Shown here: positions 15,777 to 24,900 of the stretch, piece after piece
Layout of the letters: each line of letters starts with the position of its first letter
Position numbering within the stretch: the first letter of the stretch is position 1
Notes under the pieces: generated by a model
What the model was told of the DNA's origin: nothing
The model's input: only the letters and a program-made list of their open reading frames with translations
Databases searched by the model: none
Assembly: GCA_902167325.1 (NCBI GenBank)
Contig: LR632930.1
Location: 5,704,001-5,768,000, forward strand
DNA from: Chitinophaga pinensis
Lineage (GTDB): Bacteria > Bacteroidota > Bacteroidia > Chitinophagales > Chitinophagaceae
Direction of reading: 5' to 3'
DNA: 64,000 bases
Translations under genes and position numbers: made by a program

Positions 15777-17033
15777 CTAAACGAGGTAGCCGAACAGATT
15801 GTCGTCTTTATTCAGTTCGGTATAATGCACATTGTACTTCTCCATGTTGGCCAGCAGCTTATCATAATCTTCCCGGAACTTCAGCTCCACCCCTACGAGA
15901 GCCGGGCCGGTTTCCTTGTTATGTTTCTGGATAAACTCGAACCGGGTGATATCGTCATCTGGCCCGAGTACATGGTTCACGAATTCCTTCAGGGCGCCGG
16001 GGCGCTGGGCGAAGCGGACGATGAAGTAATGCTTGAGGCCTTCGTAGAGCAGTGAGCGCTCTTTGATTTCCTGCATGCGGTCGATATCGTTATTGCTGCC
16101 GCTTACCACACACACTACCTTCTTCCCTTTGATCTCTTCCCGGAAATCGTCGAGGGCCGCCATGGAGAGGGCGCCAGCGGGTTCCACCACAATGGCGTCT
16201 TCGTTATACAGGCGGAGGATGGTGGAGCAGATGCGGCCTTCGGGCACGAGGCTCATTTTATCGAGCACATCGCGGCAGATGCTGAAGGTGAGATCACCTA
16301 CCCTTTTAACGGCAGCGCCGTCCACAAAGCGGTCTATTTCGGGGAGCGTAACCGGGCTGCCATTTTCCAGTGCTTTGAGCATGGAAGGGGCGCCTTCCGG
16401 TTCAACACCGATGATCTTTGTCTGCGGACTAAAGGTGCGGAAATAAGCGCCCACGCCGGAAGCGAGGCCGCCGCCGCCGATGGGCATAAACAGGAAATCG
16501 ATATCCTGCTGCTCTTCGAGGATTTCGAGACCAACGGTACCCTGCCCTTCGATGATCTTCAGATCGTCGAACGGCGGGATGAAGGTCATATGATGATCGC
16601 GGGTGAAGGCCTGGGCTTCGGCGGAGCAATCATCGAAGGTATCACCCACGAGGCGTATCTCGATGCTGTCTCCCCCATGCATTTTCACCTGGTTTACTTT
16701 CTGCTTTGGCGTGATGATGGGCATGAACACGACGCCCTTTACATTGAGGCGGCGGCACGACCAGGCAAAGCCCTGTGCGTGGTTGCCTGCGCTGGCGCAG
16801 GTAACGCCGTTGGCGAGGCTTTCCTGCGGGAGGGTACACATCATGTTGTAAGCTCCGCGGAGCTTATAAGAGCGTACCACCTGCATGTCTTCTCTTTTGA
16901 GATACACATCGGCCTGATATCTTCTGCTAAGGTTGGTATTGTACGTGAGGGGCGTGCGGGTAACTACGCCTTTCAGCCTTGCGGCGGCTGCTAAAACCTG
17001 CTGCGTATCGATTGTATGGAGAACTTGAGACAT
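15777..17033 (-). CDS. ilvA: Threonine ammonia-lyase (threonine deaminase)
   Basis: A 418-residue PLP enzyme that converts threonine to 2-oxobutanoate, the first committed step to isoleucine. The PLP-binding Lys57 is in SYKLRGAYN, the glycine-rich phosphate loop is MPIGGGGLASGVG, and CVVSGSNND lies near 300. Residues about 330-418 form one ACT-like regulatory segment (HYFIVRFAQRPGALKEF), shorter than the double ACT of the E. coli biosynthetic enzyme; this matches the short IlvA form. Its place at the end of the ilv operon supports a biosynthetic role over a catabolic one. It is separated from ilvC by 133 nt holding a large hairpin. Confidence 0.94.
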   Translation of the reverse strand: MSQVLHTIDTQQVLAAAARLKGVVTRTPLTYNTNLSRRYQADVYLKREDMQVVRSYKLRGAYNMMCTLPQESLANGVTCASAGNHAQGFAWSCRRLNVKGVVFMPIITPKQKVNQVKMHGGDSIEIRLVGDTFDDCSAEAQAFTRDHHMTFIPPFDDLKIIEGQGTVGLEILEEQQDIDFLFMPIGGGGLASGVGAYFRTFSPQTKIIGVEPEGAPSMLKALENGSPVTLPEIDRFVDGAAVKRVGDLTFSICRDVLDKMSLVPEGRICSTILRLYNEDAIVVEPAGALSMAALDDFREEIKGKKVVCVVSGSNNDIDRMQEIKERSLLYEGLKHYFIVRFAQRPGALKEFVNHVLGPDDDITRFEFIQKHNKETGPALVGVELKFREDYDKLLANMEKYNVHYTELNKDDNLFGYLV

Positions 17034-17166: not shown

Positions 17167-18210
17167 TTATTTGCCGGGGCGGAGCTGACGCACTGCTGCG
17201 CCTGCCTGCCACATTTCGCTGTTGCGCAGCTCTTCCAGCTCAGCGTTCAGCTTCTCACGGTAGTCGGCCTGACCGTTAGAATCGATAGAGCGCTTGGCTT
17301 CTTTACCTGCGGCTACGGATGCATACAGTTCGTCGAATACAGGCTGGGTAGCGTCACGGAATTTCTTCCACCAGTCCAGCGCACCGCGTTGAGCAGTAGT
17401 GGAGCAGTTGGCGTACATCCAGTCCATACCGTTTTCAGCAACGAGGGGCATGAGTGACTGTGTGAGTTCTTCCACGGTTTCGTTGAAGGCTTCAGACGGA
17501 GAGTGGCCGTTGTTACGCAGGGTTTGGTACTGCGCAGCAAAGATACCCTGGATACAACCCATGAGGGTACCACGTTCGCCGGTGAGGTCGGAGAATACTT
17601 CTTTTTTGAAGTCGGTCTCGAACAGGTAGCCGGAACCAACGCCGATGCCGAGGGCGATAACGCGGTCACGTGCGTGGCCGGTAGCGTCCTGGAAGATGGC
17701 GAAGGAAGAGTTCAGGCCCTGACCTGCGAGGAACAGGCGGCGGAGAGAAGTACCGGAGCCTTTAGGGGCAACCAGGATAACGTCTACATCAGCCGGAGGA
17801 ATGATATTGGTCTGCTCTTTATAAGTGATACCGAAGCCATGAGAGAAATACAGGGCTTTACCTTTGGTGAGGAACGGCTTCAGGGTAGGCCACAGTTGGA
17901 TCTGACCGGCGTCGCTGAGCAGGTACTGGATGATGGTGCCTTTCTGAGCAGCTTCTTCGATTTCGAAGAGCGTTTCGCCGGGTACCCATCCGTCAGCAAC
18001 GGCTTTGTCCCAGGTTTTGGAATTCTTGCGCTGACCGATGATCACGTTGAAACCATTGTCTTTCAGGTTAAGCGCCTGGCCGGGGCCTTGCACACCGTAA
18101 CCGATGATAGCGATAGTTTCATTCTTCAGCACTTCTCTTGCCTTTTCCATGGGGAATTCTTCTCTGGTTACTACGTCTTCCAGAACCCCGCCAAAATTGA
18201 TGGTTGCCAT
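17167..18210 (-). CDS. ilvC: Ketol-acid reductoisomerase
   Basis: A 347-residue class I (short) KARI that isomerises and reduces acetolactate or acetohydroxybutyrate with NAD(P)H and Mg2+. The Rossmann motif AIIGYGVQGPGQALN lies at 34-48. The following loop IGQRKNSKTW carries the basic residues that usually favour NADPH. Metal-site acidic residues lie in the C-terminal knotted domain (FSDLTGERGTLMG, EAFNETVEELTQ). The gene is complete and follows ilvN by 49 nt in the same operon. Confidence 0.95.
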   Translation of the reverse strand: MATINFGGVLEDVVTREEFPMEKAREVLKNETIAIIGYGVQGPGQALNLKDNGFNVIIGQRKNSKTWDKAVADGWVPGETLFEIEEAAQKGTIIQYLLSDAGQIQLWPTLKPFLTKGKALYFSHGFGITYKEQTNIIPPADVDVILVAPKGSGTSLRRLFLAGQGLNSSFAIFQDATGHARDRVIALGIGVGSGYLFETDFKKEVFSDLTGERGTLMGCIQGIFAAQYQTLRNNGHSPSEAFNETVEELTQSLMPLVAENGMDWMYANCSTTAQRGALDWWKKFRDATQPVFDELYASVAAGKEAKRSIDSNGQADYREKLNAELEELRNSEMWQAGAAVRQLRPGK

Positions 18211-18259: not shown

Positions 18260-18802
18260 TTAATCTTTCAGATTGTCTGCTTCCAGCAGGCTCAGATCCT
18301 TCAGATGTTCGTGGAAACGGCGGCTCCATTTTACGATGGCCACCCTTCCGCTTTTAGTATATTCGATCAGGCCGTACGGCTCCAGTTTCTGAAGCATGCC
18401 GATCAGTTCCTGCTGGTGCCCGGTTTTCTCCAGTACGAAGTAGTCGGGGGTGATGGTGAGGATACGTGCGTTGTTGTCACGTATGATCTTCTCGATATCG
18501 CCGTTGTGAAGGCTTTTCGTAGACACTTTATACAGCGCCAGCTCCTGGTATACCACTTCGTCTTCGTCATGAACGAAAGCGCGGTGGATCTCAATGAGCC
18601 TTTCGATCTGCCCCACCACTTTTTCCAGCAATTCCCGGTTGCTCAATACGGTGATGATGAACTTGTATACGCCCGGCACCTCCGTTTCGGCGGTGGTAAG
18701 GCTGGTGATATTGATGCCACGGCGGGTGAAGATAACCGTGATGCGGTTGGTGATCCCGCAGCGGTCTTCTGTGTATACCGTAACCGTATATTCTTTTTGC
18801 AT
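18260..18802 (-). CDS. ilvN: Acetolactate synthase small (regulatory) subunit
   Basis: A 180-residue protein with an N-terminal ACT domain (about 4-80: VTVYTEDRCGITNRIT, then VPGVYKFIITVLS) that binds valine in the family, and a C-terminal ALS small-subunit domain. It activates the IlvB catalytic subunit and gives it feedback inhibition. It lies 28 nt after ilvB and 49 nt before ilvC. The symbol ilvH would serve equally well; the choice here is by convention. Confidence 0.93.
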   Translation of the reverse strand: MQKEYTVTVYTEDRCGITNRITVIFTRRGINITSLTTAETEVPGVYKFIITVLSNRELLEKVVGQIERLIEIHRAFVHDEDEVVYQELALYKVSTKSLHNGDIEKIIRDNNARILTITPDYFVLEKTGHQQELIGMLQKLEPYGLIEYTKSGRVAIVKWSRRFHEHLKDLSLLEADNLKD

Positions 18803-18830: not shown

Positions 18831-20558
18831 CTACTCGAGGCGGATGGATGTGAGCGGTGCGCCTGCGGGCACCATTGGGAATACGTTATCTTCCTGTTCC
18901 ACCACTACTTCCAGCAGGTAAGCGCCGGGAGTATCGAGCATTTCTTTTACGGCACCGGCTATTTCGCTGCGCTCGGTTACCTTCCGGCCGGGAACGTAGA
19001 ACCCTTTCGCGATCTGCACGAAGTCGGGGTTGATCATTTCGGTGGAAGAATAGCGTTTGTCGAAGAACAGCTGCTGCCATTGCCGCACCATTCCGAGGAA
19101 GTTATTATTCAGGATCACGATTTTCACGCCGATCTGCGTCTGGTAGATGGTACCCAGTTCCTGCAGCGTCATCTGGAAGCAACCGTCTCCTATCACCGCC
19201 ACTACCGTTTTATCCGGCGCACCTACTTTGGCTCCCATGGCAGCAGGAAGGCTGAAGCCCATAGTGCCCATGCCGCCGCTGGTGATGTTGGTGTTGGGAT
19301 TCTTGAAGCGGTAATACCTGCTGGCGATCATCTGGTGCTGCCCTACATCGGTAACGAGGATGGCTTCGCCGTTGGTCTGTTCCGAGATGAAGCGTACCAC
19401 TTCTGCCATTTTAAGCTGGCCTTCGGTGGGGTACAGTTCTTTTCTCGTTACTTTCTCTTCTTCCTCACGGTCTGCCGCGCGGAAAGTTTCGAGCCATTCT
19501 GCGTGTTCCGCCTTTTTGATGAGGGGGAGCAGTGCGGTGAGGGCTTCCTTCGCATCGGCATGCACCGCTACGTCGGCATTGATGATCTTGTTGATCTCTG
19601 CTTTATCAATCTCGATGTGGATGATCTGCGCCTGGCGGGCGTAGCTGTTCACTTCGCCGGTCACCCGGTCGTCGAACCGCATGCCAATGGCGATGATCAC
19701 ATCGGCTTCGTTGGTGTTGATGTTAGGACCGTAGTTGCCGTGCATTCCCAGCATTCCCACGTAATTGGGATGCGAGGTAGACATGGCGGAGAGTCCCAGC
19801 AGTGTGGATGCAACTGGTATCTGCGCTTTATCAGACAGTTCTACCAGCAGTTTTTCCGCACCGGAGATAAGGATGCCATGGCCTGCGAGGATGTAAGGCT
19901 TTTTGGCGCTGTTGATCACATCAGCAGCTTTTTCTACGGACTCCATGTTAAGCACGGGAACGGGCTTGTAGCTACGGATATAATCGCAGGCTTTATACTG
20001 GAAATCGAGCTTGCCCACCTGTGCGTTCTTGGTAATATCTACCAGTACCGGACCGGGACGGCCGCTTTTCGCTACATAGAAAGCTTTGGCGATAGCACCC
20101 GGGATATCTTCCGGGCGGGTAACCTGGATATTCCATTTGGTGATGGGCGTGGTAATGCCGATCACGTCGGTTTCCTGGAAAGCGTCGGTACCGAGGAGCA
20201 CAGCAGCAACCTGGCCGGTGATGCATACCATGGGGGTTGAGTCCATGTAAGCATCTGCGAGGCCTGTTACGAGGTTGGTGGCGCCGGGGCCGGAGGTGGC
20301 GAACACTACGCCGGTTTTGCCACCGGCACGGGTATAACCCTGCGCGGCATGCGTGGCGCCCTGTTCGTGACGTACCAGTATATGATGAACTTTATTCTGA
20401 AAATCATAGAGGGCATCATAGATGGGCATAATAGCACCACCGGGGTAACCAAAAATGGTGTCCACGTCTTCGGCAATCAGTGACCGTATAACGGCTTCCG
20501 CACCGGTGATGATCTCGGGCGTGGCGGCTTCCCGCTTATCAGAGTCTTCACTCTTCAT
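18831..20558 (-). CDS. ilvB: Acetolactate synthase large (catalytic) subunit
   Basis: A 575-residue ThDP enzyme that condenses pyruvate to acetolactate, or pyruvate and 2-oxobutanoate to acetohydroxybutyrate. Features: [15 protein letters not shown] with the N-terminal pyrimidine domain, the catalytic Glu in [30 protein letters not shown], and the ThDP/Mg motif [15 protein letters not shown] ending near NNNFLG. ATG 20558 is chosen because AGAAGGA lies upstream; it overlaps the ilvD stop by 11 nt. ATG 20582 is an alternative. The open frame extends to 20684, but that part lies inside ilvD. Confidence 0.94.
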
Positions 20559-22227
20559 CGGTAACACATCCTTCTGTTGCATTTTTAACTTGTTTAGCGT
20601 ATTTAAATAAGATTCCTTTCGTTGCTTTAAGGGCAGGCTGTTTCCATGCCGCCTTTCGTGTTGCCAGCTCTTCGTCCGACACATGTACTTTGATCACGTT
20701 TTTCACCGCATCGATCTCGATGATGTCATCGTCGTTCACCAGCGCGATGGTGCCGCCGTCGTAGGCTTCAGGACAGATGTGCCCAACCACGAACCCGTGG
20801 GTACCGCCGGAGAAACGGCCGTCGGTGATGAGCGCAACACTCTTGCCCAGACCAACGCCCATGATCGCGCTGGTAGGCTTAAGCATTTCCGGCATGCCGG
20901 GTCCGCCTTTGGGGCCTACGTAGCGGATAACGACGACATCGCCTGCTTTTACGCGGCCATTCTGTATCCCTGCGATCAGTTCAAATTCACCATCAAAAAC
21001 ACGGGCCGGGCCGGTGAAGGCTTCCCCTTCTTTACCGGTGATTTTGGCCACAGAACCCAGTTCGGCGAGGTTGCCGTACAGGATCTGAATATGGCCGTTG
21101 GCTTTCAGTGGCTTTTCGAGCGGCACGATGATGGGTTGCTGCTCAAAATCGATATCAGGTACCGAAGCCAGGTTCTCCGCAATGGTTTTACCGGTAACGG
21201 TCAAACAATCGCCGTGGAGCATTCCTTCCTTCAGGAGGTATTTCATTACCATGGGCACACCGCCGATCTCGTGGAGGTCCTGCATCATGAAGCGGCCGCT
21301 TGGCTTAAGGTCAGCGATGAGCGGTGTTTTGTTGCTCAGGCGCTGGAAATCGTCCATGGTGAGGTTCACGCCTACCGATCTGGCAATGGCGATGAGGTGA
21401 AGCACTGCGTTGGTGCTGCCGCCGAGGGCCATGATCACTACGATGGCGTTTTCGAACGCTTCGAAGGTCATGATATCGCGCGGTTTAATATCTTTTTCCA
21501 GCAGCAGGCGGATGGCCTTGCCGGCAGCGAGGCATTCTTCCTCTTTCTCCTTGCTGATGGCAGGGTTGCTGGAGCTATAAGGGAGGCTCATGCCCATGGC
21601 TTCGATGGCGGAGCTCATGGTATTGGCCGTATACATACCGCCACAGGCGCCGGCGCCGGGGCAGCTATGCTGAATGATTTCTTTGAAATCAGAATCGTCG
21701 AGGTTGCCGGCCATTTTCTGCCCGAGGGCTTCAAAGGCGGAGATGATGTTAAGGTCCTGCCCTCTCCATTTGCCGGGGGCAATGGAACCACCGTATACCA
21801 TGATGGCAGGGCGGTTGAGGCGGCCCATGGCGATCAGGGAGCCGGGCATGTTCTTATCGCAGCCGGGTACGGTGATGAGTCCGTCATAATATTGTGCGCC
21901 GCAAACAGTTTCAATGGAGTCAGCAATCAGATCACGGCTTACGAGGGAATAGCGCATACCATCGGTACCGTTGCTAATGCCGTCGGATACGCCAATGGTG
22001 TGGAACATAAGGCCTACGAGATCGTTAGCCCAAACGCCTTCTTTTACTTTCTTCGCCAGATCGTTCAGGTGCATGTTACAGGTGTTGCCATCGTAGCCCA
22101 TGCTAACGATGCCCACTTGTGCTTTTTTCAGGTCACCTTCCGTCAGTCCAATACCGTACAGCATAGCCTGAGCGGCTGGCTGTGTCTGGTCTTGTGTAAT
22201 CGTTTTGCTGTATTTGTTTAACTCCAT
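20548..22227 (-). CDS. ilvD: Dihydroxy-acid dehydratase
   Basis: A 559-residue Fe-S dehydratase, the third shared step of valine and isoleucine synthesis. Cluster-binding cysteines are seen in GCDKNMPGS and [18 protein letters not shown], and the substrate/Mg region in [16 protein letters not shown] third cysteine position of the family is expected near the N-terminus ([11 protein letters not shown]), which is present. The length is typical. The 3' end overlaps ilvB by 11 nt, implying translational coupling. The 259-nt gap to ilvE on its 5' side holds only a GC-rich hairpin. Confidence 0.96.
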
Positions 22228-22486: not shown

Positions 22487-23389
22487 TCAGGCAGGAATAG
22501 CTGCTTTATCGAATTCTTTCTCCAGCACTTTGGCTTTGTAAGCCTGCTGAATGACTTTACCGAGGGATTGTGCCCAGGGTTTGGCAAAACCTTTGTCGTT
22601 GAAGCTGTCCCAGCCTACCACTTCGGCGGCGGTACCGCAGTAGAACACGCAATCTGCGCCTTCCAGCTCTTCCACAGTGATCTGTTTCTCTACCAGGGGT
22701 ATACCCAGTTCGTGACAGATCTCGATTACGGTTGCACGGGTGATACCGGGCAGGATGTTGCCGGGGGCGGGGGTATAGATAGTACCGTCTTTTTCATAGA
22801 ATACGTTAGCACCGGGGCCTTCAGCTACAAAACCGTCGATATCCAGCAGCAGTGCTTCGTCGTAACCTTTAGACTTCGCTTCCTGGGAGGCGAGGATGGA
22901 GTTTACGTAAAGGCCGGCGGATTTGGATTCGATTTTGAACGCTTTCGGGTTCGGACGCTGGTAGGAAGAGAGCATTACACGGAGGAGCTTTTCGCCCAGG
23001 TAAGCTCCCCATTCCCATGCGCAGATGAGGATGTGCGTTTCTTCAGCAGCCTTCAGCGTCATGTTGGGAGGACAAATGGCGAGCGGACGGATGTACGCTT
23101 CTTCCATATTGTTCATTTCCAAGATCTTATAGCATGCGTCGATCAATTCTTGATTGTTGAAGTCATACGGCATGTGAATCAGTTCGCAGGAGCGCTTAAA
23201 ACGGTCGAAGTGCTCTTTCGCCTTGAAGATCTTCACTTCCCCGCTGGCGGTCTTGTATGCGCGGATCCCTTCAAATACTGCGTATCCGTAGTGCAGCGAC
23301 TGGCCGTACAAGTCGATTTTGGCCTCAGAGGCCTTCTGGAAAGACCCGTTAAAGTAAAGAATCGTGTTTTCGTTGTAATAGCTATACAT
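22487..23389 (-). CDS. ilvE: Branched-chain amino acid aminotransferase
   Basis: A 300-residue fold-type IV PLP aminotransferase that interconverts Val, Ile and Leu with their 2-oxo acids. Features: LYGQSLHYGYAVFEGIRAY near the N-terminus, the PLP Lys region IESKSAGLYVNSILASQEAK, then EGPGANVFYEKDG and ILPGITRATVIEI with phosphate contacts. ATG 23389 is the start: the upstream extension would need a TTG inside the U-tract of the leader terminator. It is the first structural gene of the operon, directly behind the leader ORF and terminator. Confidence 0.95.
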   Translation of the reverse strand: MYSYYNENTILYFNGSFQKASEAKIDLYGQSLHYGYAVFEGIRAYKTASGEVKIFKAKEHFDRFKRSCELIHMPYDFNNQELIDACYKILEMNNMEEAYIRPLAICPPNMTLKAAEETHILICAWEWGAYLGEKLLRVMLSSYQRPNPKAFKIESKSAGLYVNSILASQEAKSKGYDEALLLDIDGFVAEGPGANVFYEKDGTIYTPAPGNILPGITRATVIEICHELGIPLVEKQITVEELEGADCVFYCGTAAEVVGWDSFNDKGFAKPWAQSLGKVIQQAYKAKVLEKEFDKAAIPA

Positions 23390-23411: not shown

Positions 23412-23441
23412 AAAAAAAAAGCCTTCCCGGTGGAGGAAGGC
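23412..23441 (-). terminator. Intrinsic terminator in the ilv leader (attenuator candidate)
   Basis: A 7-bp GC stem (23435-23441 with 23421-23427) is followed by nine U residues (23412-23420). It lies 32 nt after the leader-peptide stop and 22 nt before the ilvE ATG. TGGAGGA, at the last two sense codons of the leader ORF, is complementary over 7 nt to TCCTCCA on the 5' side of this hairpin, so an alternative pairing is possible. Confidence 0.88.
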
Positions 23442-23473
23442 GTTTATTGTTTGTTATTATTATACACGCTGGT

Positions 23474-23590
23474 CTATCCTCCAATTGGCTGGCGGGTAAT
23501 AATGACAACGACGATCACGACGAGCGTAATGGCCCAGTTGAGCTGAGCTACGATGTGATTGATTGCGTTATTGTCTTTGTTTACCCACAT
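23474..23590 (-). CDS. ilv leader peptide, 38 residues, Val/Ile/Leu-rich
   Basis: An ORF of 38 codons plus stop, too short for most gene finders. Residues 23-31 read L-V-V-I-V-V-V-I-I, nine branched-chain residues in a row; 16 of 38 residues are Ile, Val or Leu. It starts at ATG 23590, about 24 nt after the probable transcription start, and ends in GGA GGA TAG. An intrinsic terminator follows by 32 nt and ilvE by 84 nt. This is the layout of ribosome-mediated attenuation as in enterobacterial ilv leaders. ACC-TCC precedes the ATG, so there is no SD. An alternative is a small single-span membrane protein, since the run is hydrophobic. The regulatory role is inferred; the ORF and hairpin are seen. 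Confidence 0.78.
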   Translation of the reverse strand: MWVNKDNNAINHIVAQLNWAITLVVIVVVIITRQPIGG

Positions 23591-23620
23591 GGAGGTGCTG
23601 ATGATTTTTTGTTATCTACA

Positions 23621-23652
23621 CAAATGTATAAGGGTTGAAAATAAAAAACAAC
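23621..23652 (-). promoter_or_regulatory. ilv operon promoter (Bacteroidota type)
   Basis: Minus-strand -7 element TACATTTG (23621-23628) matches TAnnTTTG, and GTTG at 23649-23652 is placed as the -33 element with a 20-nt spacer. The predicted start near 23614 gives a leader of about 225 nt before ilvE that contains the leader ORF and terminator. Confidence 0.7.
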
Positions 23653-23832: not shown

Positions 23833-24900
23833 TTAGGAAGCGAGGCACTTATCGATCACGGCCTGCAGCGCAGGTTCCTTTTCAATGAGGCACTGCAGCA
23901 GCGTAAGCTGGTTCTTCGCACGGTTGAAGTTGTGCTCGGGATACTTGATGGGATAGTATACATCGCCATTCAGGTAATCGGTCAGGAAGCGGATACCCTG
24001 CATGTAGATCATAAACTTACCGGCATAGAAAAGATGTTGCTTCTCCGTATCAGTAAGGGTGCTCCCCACTTCAGAAAGGTAACCTTTCATGAGGGCTTCG
24101 TAATATTCTTCCCGTACCTGTATCTGGCTGAAATCACGTTCTTCTTCCGATACAGGACATACGTAGGTACGCACCATATCGCCCAGATCAGAGATCACCT
24201 TGCCGGGCATCAGCGTGTCGAGATCGCATACGCAGATGCCTTCGAAGGTATCCTTCTTCAGCAGTACGTTATTGATCTTGGTATCGTGATGCATGAGGCG
24301 GTCGGTAAACTCCGGGTTGGTCTTCAGCGATTCGAATGTTACCGCGATATCGCTGTAGCGGAGGAACTGTTCAATGAGATCTTCGGCAAATGCTTTCCTT
24401 TCTTCCTTCGCCGTGCGGATGGCATTCTGGAAGGAGGCGTAGCGCAGGGTGAGATTATGGAAGTTGGGGATAGATGCCCTGAACTCGTGCAGGTCAATTC
24501 CATGGAACATGCGTGCCATCAGGCCAAACTGCTTCGCGGCTTCGTATGCCTGGCGGGTATTATCTGCCTGGTCTACCGACGTGGAATCCGCGATGAAAGG
24601 GATCATACGCCAGTACTCTTCCCCATGCTGATACATCTCCTCCCCTGCCGTTGTGGGAATGGCTTTGATGAAGAGATACTCCGGATGGTGCTGATCGAGG
24701 TAATCACCGGCCAGTTTCAGGTTGCGGGCAATCACATCCGGCTCGCGGAAAACGTAGGTATTGATCCGCTGGAGGATGTAACGCTCGTTGTGCTCTCCGG
24801 TCAGCAGGAAAGTGTTGTTGATATGTCCGCTCCCGAATTTCTGCATGGAGAACTCGGCGGGCTGAAGCCCGAATGCGCTAAGGATGTCGGTATGTACCAT
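23833..24900 (-). CDS. APH/choline-kinase-fold sugar kinase (NahK-like)
   Basis: A 355-residue phosphotransferase-family protein. Seen are GSGHINNTFLL (23-33, nucleotide-binding strand region), LMHHDTKINNVLL with catalytic Asp206 of the Brenner-type HxDxxxxN motif, and CVCDLDTLMPG with metal-binding Asp226/Asp228. These features and the length match anomeric sugar kinases such as N-acetylhexosamine 1-kinase. It lies 5 nt downstream of a nucleotidyltransferase, so the pair could turn a free sugar into a sugar 1-phosphate and then an NDP-sugar. The substrate is not determined; HexNAc or fucose are suggested only by nearby hydrolases. Confidence 0.75.
   Translation of the reverse strand: MVHTDILSAFGLQPAEFSMQKFGSGHINNTFLLTGEHNERYILQRINTYVFREPDVIARNLKLAGDYLDQHHPEYLFIKAIPTTAGEEMYQHGEEYWRMIPFIADSTSVDQADNTRQAYEAAKQFGLMARMFHGIDLHEFRASIPNFHNLTLRYASFQNAIRTAKEERKAFAEDLIEQFLRYSDIAVTFESLKTNPEFTDRLMHHDTKINNVLLKKDTFEGICVCDLDTLMPGKVISDLGDMVRTYVCPVSEEERDFSQIQVREEYYEALMKGYLSEVGSTLTDTEKQHLFYAGKFMIYMQGIRFLTDYLNGDVYYPIKYPEHNFNRAKNQLTLLQCLIEKEPALQAVIDKCLAS

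Follow-up and report, generated by a model that had tools for sequence, protein, structure and literature searches.

The ilv operon of Chitinophaga pinensis appears to be controlled by a ribosome-mediated transcription attenuator that senses charged Val- and Ile-tRNA, a reading to which we give a probability of about 0.93. The candidate device lies in the 64,000-nucleotide stretch of DNA analyzed here (the window). Judged from the sequence, translation of a short leader open reading frame (ORF) with a run of branched-chain amino acid (BCAA) codons would very probably decide whether transcription stops or continues. A first-pass annotation of this DNA had proposed attenuation following the logic of the enterobacterial ilv operons; our analysis supports that interpretation, with refinements.

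Organization of the ilv leader and operon

All features lie on the minus strand, in the order promoter, 38-codon ORF, 32-nt spacer, terminator hairpin with nine U residues, and ilvE. The promoter is of the Bacteroidota type (23621 to 23651), with TTG at 23651-23649, an interval of 20 nt, and the box TACATTTG at 23628-23621. The leader peptide ORF (23474 to 23590; MWVNKDNNAINHIVAQLNWAITLVVIVVVIITRQPIGG) is kept in 49 relatives and includes nine consecutive BCAA codons (codons 23 to 31, LVVIVVVII; 23498 to 23524), of which codons 26 to 30 occupy 23515-23501. From its stop, 32 nt separate the ORF from the terminator hairpin and 84 nt from the ilvE start codon (ATG, 23389). The hairpin, GCCTTCC-TCCACCG-GGAAGGC at 23441-23421, is followed by nine T at 23420-23412; the terminator finder gave it an energy of −13.3 kcal/mol, and it is conserved in Chitinophaga. 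Every element listed in the first-pass annotation, from the TAnnTTTG promoter through the 38-codon ORF and the nine-U terminator to ilvE, is therefore present.

The operon that follows has the order ilvE-ilvD-ilvB-ilvN-ilvC-ilvA, and every gene scores above the cut-off of an NCBIfam model. Its first gene, ilvE, encodes the branched-chain aminotransferase (22487 to 23389; PRK06606 and TIGR01122) and is followed by ilvD (20548 to 22227; TIGR00110), ilvB for the acetolactate synthase large subunit (18831 to 20684; TIGR00118), ilvN for the small subunit (18260 to 18802; TIGR00119), ilvC (17167 to 18210; TIGR00465), and ilvA for threonine ammonia-lyase (15777 to 17033; TIGR02079), all on the minus strand.

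The leader seems to open an independent transcription unit, since the gene 5′ of it (23833 to 24900, minus strand) has its own intrinsic terminator at 23806-23777. Across 50 Chitinophaga leaders, a promoter box was found in 49 (L056 is the exception), and all 49 have the arrangement TTG-N20-TAnnTTTG. A transcription start downstream of the terminator had been named as an observation that would speak against attenuation; no promoter box lies between the terminator and ilvE in any of the 50 sequences, and so this objection fails. Separately, loci of several Chitinophagaceae (L059, L061, L065, L068, and L079) carry a dyad resembling GGGTGTATATTTACGAAGCATACACTC about 230 to 290 nt upstream of ilvE; it covers both the promoter box and the bases presumed to be transcribed first. 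This dyad is a possible operator or a possible partner of the first RNA segment described below.

Rarity and conservation of the leader ORF

The combination of a leader ORF carrying a run of Ile, Leu, and Val (ILV) codons with a terminator exceeds chance. Among the 451 short ATG ORFs of the window, the leader alone has nine consecutive ILV codons, and it is likewise the only ILV-rich ORF among the 25 short ORFs of the window that precede a terminator. A background scan over 931 kb of strand returned four weak matches (ILV of at least 6) among 64 ORF-terminator pairs. The leader sequence occurs as a single copy in the genome.

To place the leader among its relatives, we used 80 loci obtained by an IlvE search, 49 of which form the Chitinophaga clade (L009 to L057; the records are mostly named Chitinophaga, with L017 a Flavihumibacter MAG and L035 under [Flexibacter]). 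The leader stands at the same place in 49 of 49 of these loci, and the ORF, its Val/Ile codons, the terminator hairpin, and the pairing segments are all kept. A lack of conservation in aligned relatives, which would have told against the proposal, is thus not seen. With the window included, the 50 leaders comprise 46 distinct nucleotide versions and 29 peptides, with ORF lengths of 37 to 38 codons and a pN/pS of 0.24 (50 sequences). Indels within the ORF consist of whole codons only; the length of the spacer ranges from 27 to 35 nt. Together, the codon-wise conservation and the whole-codon indels indicate that the leader ORF is probably translated.

The Val/Ile run is present in every Chitinophaga leader and in the distant leaders described below. 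Of the earlier suggestion that the leader reads the end products of the whole pathway, the Val and Ile part holds and the Leu part does not: 19 of the 50 leaders have an inserted Lys codon followed by Val where the run otherwise has Leu, and the Val and Ile codons stay. Codon choice within the leaders is distinctive as well, with GTC making up 43% of Val codons (11% in long window ORFs) and ATT 51% of Ile codons (26% in long window ORFs). We also observed that the codon pair GTC ATT (leader codons 28 to 32; window 23509-23495) recurs in L058 to L088 despite unrelated peptides, which could reflect either hairpin pairing or the choice of a tRNA that empties early.

Alternative RNA structures of the leader

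Four RNA segments are present on the minus strand. Segment 1, CCTCCA (23590 to 23595), lies directly upstream of the leader start codon, runs into it, and is complementary to segment 2, TGGAGGA (23477 to 23483), which is formed by the last two sense codons and can pair either with segment 3 as an antiterminator or with segment 1 as a protector. Segment 3, GCCTTCCTCCA (23431 to 23441), comprises the terminator 5′ arm and loop, and segment 4, GGGAAGGC plus nine U residues (23412 to 23428), supplies the 3′ arm of the hairpin. The 7-nt complementarity between TGGAGGA (23483-23477) and TCCTCCA (23437-23431) had been noted in the first-pass annotation and is confirmed; segment 1 had been overlooked there. 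In our folding models, the classical set of 1:2, 2:3, and 3:4 pairings is complete in the ilv leader.

Pairing between CCTCCA at the start of the leader and TGGAGG at its end is predicted to close the whole ORF into a protector hairpin. Minimum-energy folds of the leaders shown consist of one long ORF hairpin, with ATGTGGGTAAA..GACAA set against TTGTCATTATTA..CCACCA..TGGAGG. Pairing of the ORF start with its end has a mean probability of 0.81 and exceeds 0.4 in 50 of 50 leaders (synonymous recodings average 0.41, most of them pairing more weakly than the native leader), and the long leader hairpin reaches −38.7 kcal/mol, compared with −30.7 kcal/mol for synonymous recodings of the same peptides. 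In a within-genus pair count, 1:2 pairs were kept in 92% of cells, with changes mostly to G-U, and the same counting detected no 1:2 covariation beyond shuffles within Chitinophaga. The hairpin is therefore supported by stability and codon choice rather than by covariation. The start-end hairpin can also explain why the non-BCAA N-terminal residues MWVNKDN are kept.

RNAalifold, applied to the Chitinophaga alignment, selected the 2:3 antiterminator, in which a single pair shows double changes; this alignment is too little diverged, and the terminator 3′ arm is misaligned in it. Since the Chitinophaga sequences are too conserved for a within-genus test, support for 2:3 pairing comes from covariation between clades.

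Predicted effect of ribosome position

To relate these structures to translation, we placed a ribosome with its A site on each codon in turn and folded only the RNA 3′ of it, the 12-nt footprint edge being the sole fitted parameter. For the window leader, the antiterminator probability P(2:3) was 0.89, 0.95, 0.95, 0.99, and 0.76 with the A site on codons 26 to 30, respectively, intermediate on codons 25 and 31, and near zero with the ribosome at codons 35 to 39. The terminator was predicted at all other ribosome positions except codons 1 to 3, where antitermination was again predicted; this last result counts against the attenuator model. That a stalled ribosome would free the pairing segment and that one at the stop codon would cover it, as earlier suggested, is reproduced by this otherwise untuned folding. 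The stall itself had been allowed anywhere in the nine-codon run, which the folding upholds for codons 26 to 30, leaves intermediate for 25 and 31, and does not extend to codons 23 and 24 at the Leu end. Because predicted antitermination is confined to Ile/Val codons 26 to 30 (plus codons 1 to 3), the sensor would read Val and Ile, and Leu appears dispensable for it. Ribosome-free window RNA is predicted to hold the 1:2 pairing (probability 0.82) together with the terminator (0.99). Of 300 synonymous recodings, only 8 performed as well as the native leader.

When complete transcripts of the relatives were folded at equilibrium with the ribosome on BCAA codons, the terminator was still favored in many of them (median minimum P(term) of 0.79 in Chitinophaga). 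Cotranscriptional timing must therefore be assumed, and, since equilibrium folds miss the switch in these relatives, partial transcripts were folded as well. In transcripts without segment 4, a ribosome stalled 12 to 6 codons ahead of the stop allowed about six or more 2:3 pairs in each of the 50 Chitinophaga leaders; with the ribosome at the stop, there were none. Across 41 distant leaders, 11.2 2:3 pairs were expected with the ribosome on BCAA codons, compared with 1.4 at the stop. In the relatives that favor the terminator at equilibrium, the switch would work only if the 2:3 pairing came first, as the classical model has it. In silico, antiterminator formation is predicted to preclude the terminator and to require a stalled ribosome, a prediction consistent with the between-clade 2:3 covariation reported below.

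We infer leader translation, stalling, termination, and an amino acid response for the ilv leader, which would operate as follows. RNA polymerase would start about 30 nt upstream of the leader ORF. On RNA free of ribosomes, segments 1 and 2 would pair, the ORF would become one long hairpin hiding the start codon, and the 3:4 terminator would form. With ample Val- and Ile-tRNA, the ribosome would get to the last codons and cover segment 2, and the terminator would again form. If Val- or Ile-tRNA were short, the ribosome would stall on codons 26 to 30, opening the hairpin and freeing segment 2, which would then pair with segment 3 while segment 4 is still to be transcribed, so that the polymerase would read into ilvE-D-B-N-C-A.

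Distribution across Bacteroidota and covariation between clades

To determine how broadly such leaders occur, one automatic rule (a BCAA-rich leader with an adjacent terminator) was applied to 83 further Bacteroidota regions, comprising 31 ilvE loci and 52 ilvD regions drawn across the phylum. A BCAA leader with a terminator was found in 39 of these 83 upstream regions (L081 and L131 are doubtful), at about three quarters of the ilvE loci and about a quarter of the ilvD regions. Loci with leaders include Niastella, other Chitinophagaceae, Pedobacter, Flavobacterium, and Chryseobacterium; at one more locus (L073), a leader with a GTG start is visible by eye and was missed by the rule. The rule returned no leader for several ilvE loci and for the majority of the ilvD regions, and the device is therefore not shared by the whole phylum. 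At four loci (L086, L095, L104, and L117), belonging to Flavobacterium subsaxonicum and further Bacteroidota genomes, we observed tandem BCAA leader ORFs before the ilv genes, each with its own terminator.

Outside Chitinophaga, the leader peptides are unrelated save for the BCAA run, and non-BCAA residues are not kept between clades. Segment 2 reads GGAGGA in Chitinophaga, GGAGGTGG in other Chitinophagaceae, AAGGCGCT in Pedobacter, and GGGAAAGCTT in family f23, and each clade's terminator arm bears the complement of its own segment 2. The mean 2:3 duplex energy is −14.1 kcal/mol when each leader is paired with its own arm and −9.4 kcal/mol when the arm comes from another clade; none of 5000 permutations reached the own-arm value. 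At the level of sequence comparison, we regard the parts, their conservation, and this between-clade 2:3 covariation as established.

Leader composition and operon content

The content of the leader appears to follow that of the operon. Five Pedobacter genomes have leuA on the same strand as ilvE, 11 to 13 kb further downstream (in P. westerhofensis, contiguous same-strand large ORFs run from ilvE through leuA and beyond), and their leaders have five to seven Leu codons within the last 20. At six other Chitinophagaceae-type loci, leuA is upstream of the leader, and in the C. pinensis genome it lies 3.2 Mb from the ilv leader; Val and Ile dominate all of these leaders. That Leu-rich leaders accompany leu genes in the operon is supported rather than proved by these loci, which amount effectively to one phylogenetic contrast. 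The separate leu locus of C. pinensis (L142, G000:C1:2460500-2466600) has four same-strand genes, of which leuA is the last, and no leader with an intrinsic terminator is recognizable there; leucine control must therefore work otherwise.

Leaders of other types are found in the same genome. A His-codon leader, MNITVHTHHHHTCQTGKQGML, precedes hisG (L144, G000:C1:5839600-5843145, reverse strand); it comes with the terminator AAAGGCTTACCGTGTACCGGTAAGCCTTT, whose 5′ arm contains GGCTTACCG, a complement of the ORF end CCGGTAAGC. A Trp-codon leader, MQMNNTYKLWWHAMDISAV, with a terminator precedes trpE (L145, G000:C1:5834195-5838538, reverse strand). In this leader, it is the 3′ arm (TACACAGCGG) and not the 5′ arm that exactly complements the ORF end CCGCTGTGTA, which suggests a 2:4 rather than a 2:3 antiterminator.

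Alternative explanations

The low pN/pS over 50 sequences and the hydrophobic stretch would also suit a functional hydrophobic (membrane) micropeptide whose transcript merely ends at the terminator, with read-through into ilvE. We consider this very improbable: outside Chitinophaga the peptide shares nothing but the BCAA run, the ORF start doubles as the 5′ arm of an RNA hairpin that explains much of the conservation, the ORF end encodes whatever fits the local terminator arm, and His and Trp leaders stand before his and trp genes.

Slightly less probable still is a leader RNA whose signal is not translation, be it a riboswitch, a T-box, or the binding site of a protein on the long hairpin, with the ORF incidental. 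The greater stability of the long hairpin relative to its synonymous recodings would be expected of such an RNA, but codon-wise conservation and whole-codon indels point to translation, and the best Rfam matches, all below threshold, are leader-peptide attenuators. Nascent-peptide arrest, or translational coupling with reinitiation at ilvE, in place of tRNA charging and termination, is similarly remote. Although peptide parts outside the run are conserved within Chitinophaga, they are not kept between clades; between the leader stop and the ilvE start lie 84 nt and a strong terminator, and the type of residue tracks the operon (his, trp, ilv, or ilv plus leu).

Implications and comparison with known systems

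Beyond this locus, we lean toward the view that ribosome-mediated attenuation is a main mode of control of amino acid operons (ilv, his, and trp) across much of Bacteroidota, with leaders that share the four-segment logic rather than sequence and that follow gene content. If so, transcription and translation would be coupled in a phylum whose ribosomes mostly skip Shine-Dalgarno pairing, and leader translation would start without such pairing. A well-defined, widely conserved Bacteroidota case would offer a ready reporter of whether ribosomes track RNA polymerase closely there, and of how a ribosome is recruited early enough to leaders that lack a Shine-Dalgarno site. Because the leader names the amino acid, it also provides a simple annotation rule for amino acid operons. 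A phylum-level list of runaway transcription is without Bacteroidota (PMC13323073), an absence that would fit a device dependent on coupling.

Leader-peptide attenuation has mainly been described from Proteobacteria and Actinobacteria; a 2010 survey, which added Firmicutes, was aware of no earlier case beyond these two groups (PMC2965389). Within Bacteroidota, a Flavobacterium psychrophilum transcriptome gave strong clues for leader-peptide attenuation upstream of amino acid operons (PMC9723704); the main-text passages of that study describe no individual ilv leader, and Chitinophagaceae lie outside the coverage apparent from them. Bacteroid-trp RNA (RF01692) is listed as a probable cis-regulatory RNA of Bacteroidetes (PMC2864571). 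It is tied by name to trp genes, not ilv, and scores for the window and for the trpE region of the same genome do not rise above the Rfam threshold. Our literature search returned no paper on a Chitinophagaceae ilv attenuator; the attenuation survey of Lopatovskaya et al. (2010) may hold predictions for Bacteroidetes.

Attenuation of ilv operons has precedents in Escherichia coli and has been shown or proposed for Corynebacterium and others (PMC10272879). The ilvB-II motif of Corynebacterium and the ilvB-OMG and ilvB motifs resemble the Chitinophaga leader in having a BCAA-rich upstream ORF (uORF) within a hairpin, a terminator, and ilv genes, and reporter data for the Corynebacterium motif indicate low expression in rich medium (PMC10272879). 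These motifs belong to other phyla, and the Corynebacterium uORF has 15 to 17 codons and precedes ilvB; the comparison with the Chitinophaga leader is one of layout.

At the gathering threshold, no Rfam family matched anywhere in the whole 64,000-nt window, and a T-box or known riboswitch was rejected on the same search with the Rfam covariance models. The best subthreshold matches on the ilv leader, Phe_leader (RF01859) and Thr_leader (RF00506), scored 27.3 and 20.7 bits (gathering threshold, 55) and reflect a common layout, as those families concern other amino acids and taxa. Since attenuation is known elsewhere and no Rfam family covers this leader, the mechanism is known and the member is new in the literature searched. 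This type of attenuation is textbook knowledge for enterobacterial ilv operons. The Chitinophaga leader resembles the enterobacterial ilvGMEDA and ilvBN attenuators in its ORF with BCAA codons, predicted protector and antiterminator, and terminator, and in the biosynthetic operon 3′ of them. In contrast to those systems, its peptide is not recognizably related, its control run is Val/Ile with Leu apparently dispensable, its promoter is of the TAnnTTTG type, its segment 1 overlaps the leader start codon, and the first gene of its operon is ilvE.
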